DNA of 64,000 nucleotides, from assembly GCA_018268315.1 (NCBI GenBank), contig JAFDWU010000001.1, forward strand, positions 39,280 to 103,279. The letters are read 5' to 3'. The number at the start of each line of letters is the position of its first letter. Positions within the stretch are counted from its first letter, which is position 1. Both the position numbers and the translations under genes were made by a program. Below, in pieces: positions 1-18,829 of the stretch. This DNA comes from Armatimonadota bacterium (GTDB taxonomy: Bacteria; Armatimonadota; Fimbriimonadia; Fimbriimonadales; Fimbriimonadaceae). A model generated the notes under the pieces. It saw only the letters and a program-made list of their open reading frames with translations. It was not told where the DNA came from and searched no databases.

Positions 1-3710
<3,710 letters not shown>

Positions 3711-17162: not shown

Positions 17163-17183
17163 TAAGTCGGAACGACTTATAAT
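17163..17183 (+). promoter_or_regulatory. palindromic operator and leaderless promoter of the four-paralogue operon
   Basis: A perfect 7-3-7 inverted repeat, TAAGTCG-GAA-CGACTTA (17163-17179), runs into a consensus TATAAT at 17178-17183. The ATG follows after 6 nt. A bound dimer would cover the -10 region, so repression is the simple reading. A TTGACT at 17151-17156 would need a 21-nt spacer. Confidence 0.6.
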
Positions 17184-17189
17184 CAAACC

Positions 17190-17456
17190 ATGGTCCAACA
17201 TCTCGCATTTCTCGGTCCCGATCAGATGGCGCTGATGATTCCAATCATCGCACTTCTGATTCCCATTGTGGCGATCTTGGTTAAGCACCAGCAGCATATG
17301 GCGGAATTGATGCACCGCGCGCCTCAGCAGATGACGGCTAATCCGGAAGTTGAGATGATGCGACAGGAGATCGCGGAGCTGCGGCAGCACATGATGCGGC
17401 AAACCATGGCGCTCGATGCCATTCAGGAAGCCCAGCGGAAGGAGTTGCGCCAGTGA
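17190..17456 (+). CDS. tandem paralogue 1: small membrane/coiled-coil protein
   Basis: 88 aa. A short N-terminus is followed by one membrane helix (MALMIPIIALLIPIVAILV), then the shared motif HQQHMAELMH, a short linker, and a heptad-rich coiled coil (QEIAELRQHMMRQTMALDAI) ending QEAQRKELRQ. The layout (single pass, cytoplasmic basic/His motif, coiled coil) recalls PspB-type proteins in size and topology only; I do not claim homology. The start has TATAAT 6 nt upstream and no ribosome site, so a leaderless mRNA is likely. The stop overlaps the next start (GTGA). Confidence 0.8.
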   Translation: MVQHLAFLGPDQMALMIPIIALLIPIVAILVKHQQHMAELMHRAPQQMTANPEVEMMRQEIAELRQHMMRQTMALDAIQEAQRKELRQ

Positions 17457-17743
17457 GCATCTTCCTCGCTGATCTCGCGACCGACCTTCTTTCTCCGCCC
17501 GTACTAAAGCAGCTGGTGGCGCTCATCGCGTTCACCGGTCTGTTCGGAACAATGCTTATTAGGTCACTGCTTCGCCACCAACAGAAAATGGCCGCACTCA
17601 TGATTTCTCAGGTTGGCGCAAATTCAACCAAGGAGAATGAGGACCTTCGGCAAGAGGTAGCGCAACTACGGCAGCAGCTTACGCAGCAGGCCTTGGCCCT
17701 CGATGCACTGCAAGAGGCGCAAAGGAGGGAGCTACATAGATGA
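17453..17743 (+). CDS. tandem paralogue 2: small membrane/coiled-coil protein
   Basis: 96 aa. Membrane helix around residues 21-38 (LVALIAFTGLFGTMLIRSLL), then the shared motif HQQKMAALM, then a coiled coil (LRQEVAQLRQQLTQQALALD) ending QEAQRRELHR. The C-terminus is nearly the same as in paralogue 1 (A-L-D-A-[IL]-Q-E-A-Q-R-[KR]-E-L), so these two are the closest pair. It starts at a GTG overlapping the preceding stop by 4 nt and its own stop overlaps the next ATG by 4 nt, so translation is coupled through the array. Confidence 0.8.
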   Translation: MSIFLADLATDLLSPPVLKQLVALIAFTGLFGTMLIRSLLRHQQKMAALMISQVGANSTKENEDLRQEVAQLRQQLTQQALALDALQEAQRRELHR

Positions 17744-18060
17744 ATATGATGAACACCAACTTCACGGGCCAGCTTCTGACAGCGCCGGTGCTCGATCAAC
17801 TTGCGCCGATGGTGGTGAGCATTGGCTTCTTCGCCGTCATCATCGTGATGGCTCTGCTTCGACATCAGCGCAAGATGGCGGAATTGATGCATAGCCAGAT
17901 CGATAACCAGGCGAACTCAAATATTGAACTGCGGCTTGCCTCGCTTGAGAGCCAGGTAGCGGATTTACGGACCCTGTTGCACCGCGAGATCATTCAGCAG
18001 GACAGCCTCACGCCTCCTCGAATGCCCTCGGAAGCGCTGCAAAACAGGCTGGGACAGTAA
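17740..18060 (+). CDS. tandem paralogue 3: small membrane/coiled-coil protein
   Basis: 106 aa. Membrane helix around residues 24-41 (MVVSIGFFAVIIVMALL), then HQRKMAELMHSQI, then a coiled coil RLASLESQVADLRTLLHREI ending in IIQQDS and a Pro-rich tail. The second half matches paralogue 4 (RL-x-x-[IL]-E-x-Q-[LV]-x-DLR-x-L-[LM]-H), so 3 and 4 form the other close pair. It starts with ATGA overlap and stops 3 nt before paralogue 4. Confidence 0.8.
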   Translation: MNMMNTNFTGQLLTAPVLDQLAPMVVSIGFFAVIIVMALLRHQRKMAELMHSQIDNQANSNIELRLASLESQVADLRTLLHREIIQQDSLTPPRMPSEALQNRLGQ

Positions 18061-18063
18061 TCG

Positions 18064-18369
18064 ATGGACCCGGCAACCGCAAAGCATTTAGCCGACGAGA
18101 TTGCGTTCCTGCTTTTTGTTCTCATCTCCGTGGGATTTGTTACCGTGCTGATGCTGTTGCAGCATCAGCGCCGAACAGCGGAGCTAATTCACAAGCAGAT
18201 CGAAGATCAAGATCAATCGAACATGGGCAAGCGGCTTGAGGCGATTGAAGGACAGTTGCAGGATCTGCGGGCGCTGATGCACTCGCAAATAATCCAGCAG
18301 GACGCGGCGCAGCCGTTGCCGCCGAGCACGGCGGTGGAGAATCTACAGCACCGCGTGAGCCAGAAGTAG
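18064..18369 (+). CDS. tandem paralogue 4: small membrane/coiled-coil protein
   Basis: 101 aa. Membrane helix around residues 14-31 (FLLFVLISVGFVTVLMLL), then HQRRTAELIHKQI, then RLEAIEGQLQDLRALMHSQI and IIQQDA, with a Pro-rich end. It is the last member of the array and begins 3 nt after paralogue 3. All four share the order membrane helix, H-Q-[QR]-x-x-A-x-[LI], variable linker, coiled coil, which suggests they assemble together as a membrane-anchored bundle. That assembly is inference. Confidence 0.8.
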   Translation: MDPATAKHLADEIAFLLFVLISVGFVTVLMLLQHQRRTAELIHKQIEDQDQSNMGKRLEAIEGQLQDLRALMHSQIIQQDAAQPLPPSTAVENLQHRVSQK

Positions 18370-18490: not shown

Positions 18491-18829
18491 TTGGAAAAAC
18501 CCGTCCTTCTCGCGACAACTTTCGGAGTTTTATTAAGTTGTTATTGGTTTTCGTTTAGAGCCCTGCTTGCAGCAGGCAGAATGAAACTTAACGTTCCCCG
18601 CTTAATCCTCGGATTCATCCTTGCTTATCCTATCTGCGCCTTCTTTGAGATTCTGTTTGTACCGATGTGCGGCGGCCCCCCAGTTAGCTGGATGTACTCT
18701 CTGCTTGGATGTCTCTATTCAGCCGCAATTTCGCAGATGACGGACGCAAGTTACCGTCGGAGAATGCTCGCCTACGGATTCATCGCCTTCGTGATTTGTG
18801 CCGTGCCTTCTTTTGAGCACTGCGGTTGA
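18491..18829 (+). CDS. small integral membrane protein, unknown
   Basis: 112 aa with about four membrane segments: VLLATTFGVLLSCYWFSFRA, LILGFILAYPICAFFEILFV, SWMYSLLGCLYSAAIS and MLAYGFIAFVICAVPSF. No conserved motif was recognised. The start is a TTG with AAGGGAG 9 nt upstream, a clear ribosome site. It follows the four-paralogue array by 120 nt but has its own upstream inverted repeat, so it is probably a separate transcript. Confidence 0.65.
   Translation: MEKPVLLATTFGVLLSCYWFSFRALLAAGRMKLNVPRLILGFILAYPICAFFEILFVPMCGGPPVSWMYSLLGCLYSAAISQMTDASYRRRMLAYGFIAFVICAVPSFEHCG

Follow-up and report, generated by a model that had tools for sequence, protein, structure and literature searches.

What do four small membrane proteins encoded in tandem in an Armatimonadota genome do, and does their arrangement as a block of four matter? 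We address this for a window (the whole stretch of DNA analysed, 64,000 nucleotides from a member of the Fimbriimonadaceae) in which a first-pass annotation had described four tandem small ORFs on one strand; the ORFs and their junctions are as described there (Table 1). Of 61 relatives, 52 have homologues, and dN/dS is 0.02-0.18 in those related pairs for which it could be computed. On these comparative grounds we take the four ORFs to be real genes, and by the same measure of substitution the family is under purifying selection. No further family copies were identified in the window's genome (2.8 Mb, 9 contigs, estimated to be 100% complete). Given the TATAAT sequence ahead of the array, a leaderless start of member 1 is possible. 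A regulon of the inverted repeat was rejected, as no second exact copy is present in the genome and a reversed control pattern gave more matches. On the other side, 121 nt past the array, a 112-aa ORF with a TTG start (18491-18829, + strand) has no family match; it could encode a small membrane protein or be no gene.

Table 1. Coordinates of the array, its upstream elements and histidine-pathway proteins. Positions are those of the window unless a locus is named; several of the HisB-family proteins with lost metal-ligand residues lie beside the array.
Feature	Position	Strand	Remarks
Family member 1	17190..17456	+	88 aa; membrane helix, KHQQHMAEL motif, linker, coiled coil
Family member 2	17453..17743	+	96 aa; GTG start overlaps member 1 stop (GTGA)
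Family member 3	17740..18060	+	106 aa; start overlaps member 2 stop (ATGA); C-terminal tail ALQNRLGQ
Family member 4	18064..18369	+	101 aa; 3-nt gap from member 3; C-terminal tail NLQHRVSQK
Inverted repeat TAAGTCG-GAA-CGACTTA	17163-17179	+	perfect, 7-bp arms; operator-like
TATAAT	17178-17183	+	overlaps inverted repeat; ends 6 nt before member 1 ATG
Lone HisB, window's genome	L109:5864-6472 (G000:C4, outside window)	-	active-site histidines intact
HisB-family protein, metal-ligand residues lost	L052:5313-5921
HisB-family protein, metal-ligand residues lost	L110:5061-5657
HisB-family protein, metal-ligand residues lost	L125:3548-4147
HisB-family protein, metal-ligand residues lost	L115:3391-4110
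HisB-family protein, metal-ligand residues lost	L114:5406-5975
Degenerate HisA-family protein	L096:3590-4222		directly upstream of family
Degenerate HisA-family protein	L112:4924-5466		directly upstream of family

Each of the four proteins has a single hydrophobic segment (best 19-residue mean Kyte-Doolittle values of 1.9-3.0), and a strongly hydrophobic segment is present near the N-terminus in 131 of 131 family members. The AlphaFold model of protein 1 (mean pLDDT 88.9) comprises a helix at residues 10-43, a linker of lower confidence and a helix at 52-87. The anatomy proposed from the letters alone, with a single membrane helix and another helix after it, is supported; the coiled-coil prediction is unspecific. 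The proposed motif, H-Q-[QR]-x-x-A-x-[LI], is also present, but the family-wide form is better written HQ[RQ]xMAx[LI] and directly follows the membrane helix. In protein 1 numbering, H33, Q34, A38 and L40 are invariant in all four proteins, which align over most of their length (proteins 1 and 2 with 47% identity), and L30, H33, Q34, M37 and A38 are nearly invariant across 69 members. The HQ motif occurs in 105-112 of the 131.

Positively charged residues mark the cytoplasmic side of a membrane segment (the positive-inside rule). Among the 131 members, K and R exceed D and E past the hydrophobic segment (3.18 vs 1.79 per protein), and the reverse is seen ahead of it (1.18 vs 1.89). We therefore predict an N-out/C-in topology, in which the coiled coil would be cytoplasmic. 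Many members end in a tail of the form [ILVM][QESD]xR[LIV], which was identified in 50 of 117 nearer members vs 2.2 expected from shuffles, a contrast that is inflated because the shuffles (permutations of the last 35 residues) ignore the relatedness of the members. The tail is present in members 3 and 4 of the array, and absent in members 1 and 2 and in distant members.

None of the four proteins has an above-cut-off match in Pfam or NCBIfam, or any match in PADLOC, and no Pfam family is common to the 69 members. Profile searches thus place the proteins in no known family, unrelated or otherwise, as the first-pass annotation had anticipated in recognising no described system. A defence system was rejected for want of a PADLOC match, and a mobile element or phage because no relative was identified in viral contigs or plasmids. 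A fold search with the two-helix model of protein 1 returned no match. A sequence search of the PDB gave a coiled coil of NEMO as the best match (E 0.00037), and otherwise mostly coiled coils and ion-channel helices, all of which we consider unspecific. The literature searched yielded no paper that treats the family or HisB pseudoenzymes. The family was identified in 137 of 255 Armatimonadota genomes. A contig search with the motif yielded 22 confirmed matches, all labelled as Armatimonadota groups (Armatimonadetes, Armatimonadota, Fimbriimonadia, Fimbriimonadaceae, Fimbriimonas, Chthonomonas) apart from one plain 'bacterium'; this search used one narrow motif, which members in other phyla may have escaped. 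With their shared layout of membrane helix, HQxxMA motif and second helix, the four proteins are members, as judged from these searches, of an Armatimonadota family of small membrane proteins that has not been described before.

How did the block of four arise? In a FastTree phylogeny of the 131 members (a short alignment, in which deep branches are weak and the deep orthology of the pairs is below resolution), proteins 1 and 2 group with a support of 0.91 and proteins 3 and 4 with 0.99, consistent with the earlier view that the array grew by duplication and contains two closer pairs. The pairs are not each other's nearest relatives in this tree. Thus, the array probably derives from an old tandem pair of paralogues, each of which was duplicated in the window's lineage. 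Carrier genomes have one to six copies, often in tandem, and runs of two, three and four were seen (other four-gene runs are those of L042/L103 and L098). Tandem arrays therefore do occur in relatives, but copy number and run length vary too much among them for a conserved four-gene block. We conclude that the block in the window is one local expansion, the layout of which is incidental, and no fixed unit.

What is conserved is the location, rather than the four-gene block. By coordinates, 26 of the 52 carriers have the family downstream of hisA or hisB, on the same strand and no more than 2.5 kb away. This address beside the histidine genes and rpoB in relatives was overlooked in the first-pass annotation, as was the retention of the family after the pathway is lost. 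The commonest arrangement in relatives is hisB, hisH, hisA and the family, followed by rpoB in this bacterial order or by sucD in some others. Neighbouring genes were named by recognising their sequences and by BLAST against reference neighbours, and HisB and HisA were confirmed by Pfam profiles. Each of eight distant loci from three distant families, picked by match score and blind to their neighbours, has two family genes in tandem close to a histidine gene; such a pair at the histidine operon is thus the likely ancestral state. The window's own array is away from the histidine genes and about 13.5 kb from rpoB (start near 3710, - strand). It is flanked by a glycosyltransferase gene on one side and a small ORF on the other, with a transaldolase gene (talB) and a trmE-like gene beyond. 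The family is thus widespread in one phylum and has a conserved genomic address.

Lacking from the window's genome are HisA/HisF (the sole match is weak and falls on a different protein) and HisD. The same enzymes (HisA/HisF and an intact HisD) are absent from 13 near-complete genomes among the 61, the window's included, and these are probably histidine auxotrophs, as judged from HisA/HisF and HisD only. The family is kept in 12 of the 13, with four copies in the window's own genome. Because it outlasts the loss of the pathway, it probably does not serve histidine synthesis.

We propose, with even confidence for and against, that the family consists of bitopic inner-membrane anchors that oligomerise by their cytoplasmic coiled coil and recruit a partner, and that an old tandem pair was doubled in this lineage to give the array. 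The N-terminus would be outside and the HQRKMAEL stretch would sit at the cytoplasmic face of the membrane. The cytoplasmic helices of the co-translated paralogues may associate as a coiled coil, giving homo- or hetero-oligomeric membrane anchors, and the flexible linker together with the conserved [ILVM][QESD]xR[LIV] tail would recruit a cytoplasmic partner. The ancestral place of the anchors would probably be the end of the histidine operon, yet without a role in histidine synthesis. Many carrier genomes have one family copy only, so the heteromer envisaged in the first-pass annotation cannot be essential to the family.

Which partner might be recruited? The tail that is conserved in many members could bind one, and a HisB-fold protein is one candidate, suggested by its co-retention with the family. 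A specific version of the membrane-anchor explanation holds that the family anchors a repurposed HisB-fold (IGPD) protein, with HisB, and in one family HisA, as non-catalytic partners outside histidine synthesis. HisB is kept without the pathway in nine of the 13 likely auxotrophs, and in five of these nine its gene immediately precedes the array. At least one metal-ligand or catalytic residue is lost in 14 HisB sequences (e.g., in L052, G005, G015, G024 and G040), which are encoded next to the family or at other sites in genomes of this kind; several genomes have a second, canonical HisB elsewhere. The five altered proteins that were scanned all still match the whole IGPD profile, and dN/dS for one altered pair is 0.29. 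Those with lost metal-ligand residues are candidate pseudoenzymes. A degenerate HisA adjoins the family in G040, G042 and G046. However, three likely auxotrophs have the family and no HisB (G009, G017 and G042), HisB and the array are apart in the window's genome and in G002, G013 and G015, and HisB could have been retained for an independent reason. We therefore regard it as rather unlikely that a HisB-fold (sometimes HisA-fold) protein without its catalytic residues passed from the histidine operon into a membrane assembly with the family and that this assembly outlived histidine synthesis. If HisB and the family do belong together, they would show how a biosynthetic enzyme can become, in nature, a structural or regulatory part. 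The retention of histidine-locus genes, including HisB with an altered active site, where the pathway is apparently lost is in any event a testable oddity.

The general anchor reading must also be weighed against an adaptor for membrane stress that, like PspB, would recruit PspA, which we judge improbable. PspA/IM30 was identified in 31 of 31 genomes, and PspB in none of 41 (no PF06667 match, the window's genome included), and the family has the size, topology and coiled coil of PspB; with PspA universal in the genomes tested, a PspB-like role is functionally conceivable. No PspA gene, however, was recognised among the family's neighbours (histidine genes, rpoB and sucD in relatives; glycosyltransferase and talB/trmE in the window), and in the window's genome (G000) PspA is on contig C2 and the array on C1. 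Nor is there a sequence relation: the four proteins do not match PF06667, and hhalign against E. coli PspB gave a probability of 9.8% over 21 coiled-coil columns. PspB membership was rejected on these profile comparisons.

That the family tethers HisB, HisH and HisA to the membrane would explain its place downstream of hisA/hisB in half of the carriers, and its similar position beside a histidine gene in more remote families within the phylum, but its persistence in genomes without HisA/HisF and intact HisD makes this still more doubtful. A divisome-type protein (FtsL/FtsB/DivIC-like), whose coiled coil would lie on the outer side of the membrane, is very improbable: the match of protein 1 to FtsL_2 (PF19579; E 0.0033, 17.7 bits) is below the Pfam cut-off of 24.6, only two of 69 members match this profile even weakly, and the charge distribution would place the coiled coil inside.

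Compared with known systems, the family of putative anchors resembles PspB (PF06667) in size, in its single N-terminal membrane helix and in its predicted cytoplasmic coiled coil; that this likeness is one of size and topology only, as stated in the first-pass annotation, agrees with our searches. Unlike PspB, the family has other gene neighbours and occurs in tandem copies. With FtsL_2 it shares the succession of membrane helix and coiled coil, as well as the weak match of protein 1, but the match is not family-wide and the predicted topology is the opposite. HisB (IGPD, PF00475) is a neighbour and no homologue: an unrelated soluble enzyme, in contrast to the membrane proteins of the family. 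Many relatives encode the two at one locus, and HisB is often co-kept with the family after loss of the pathway.
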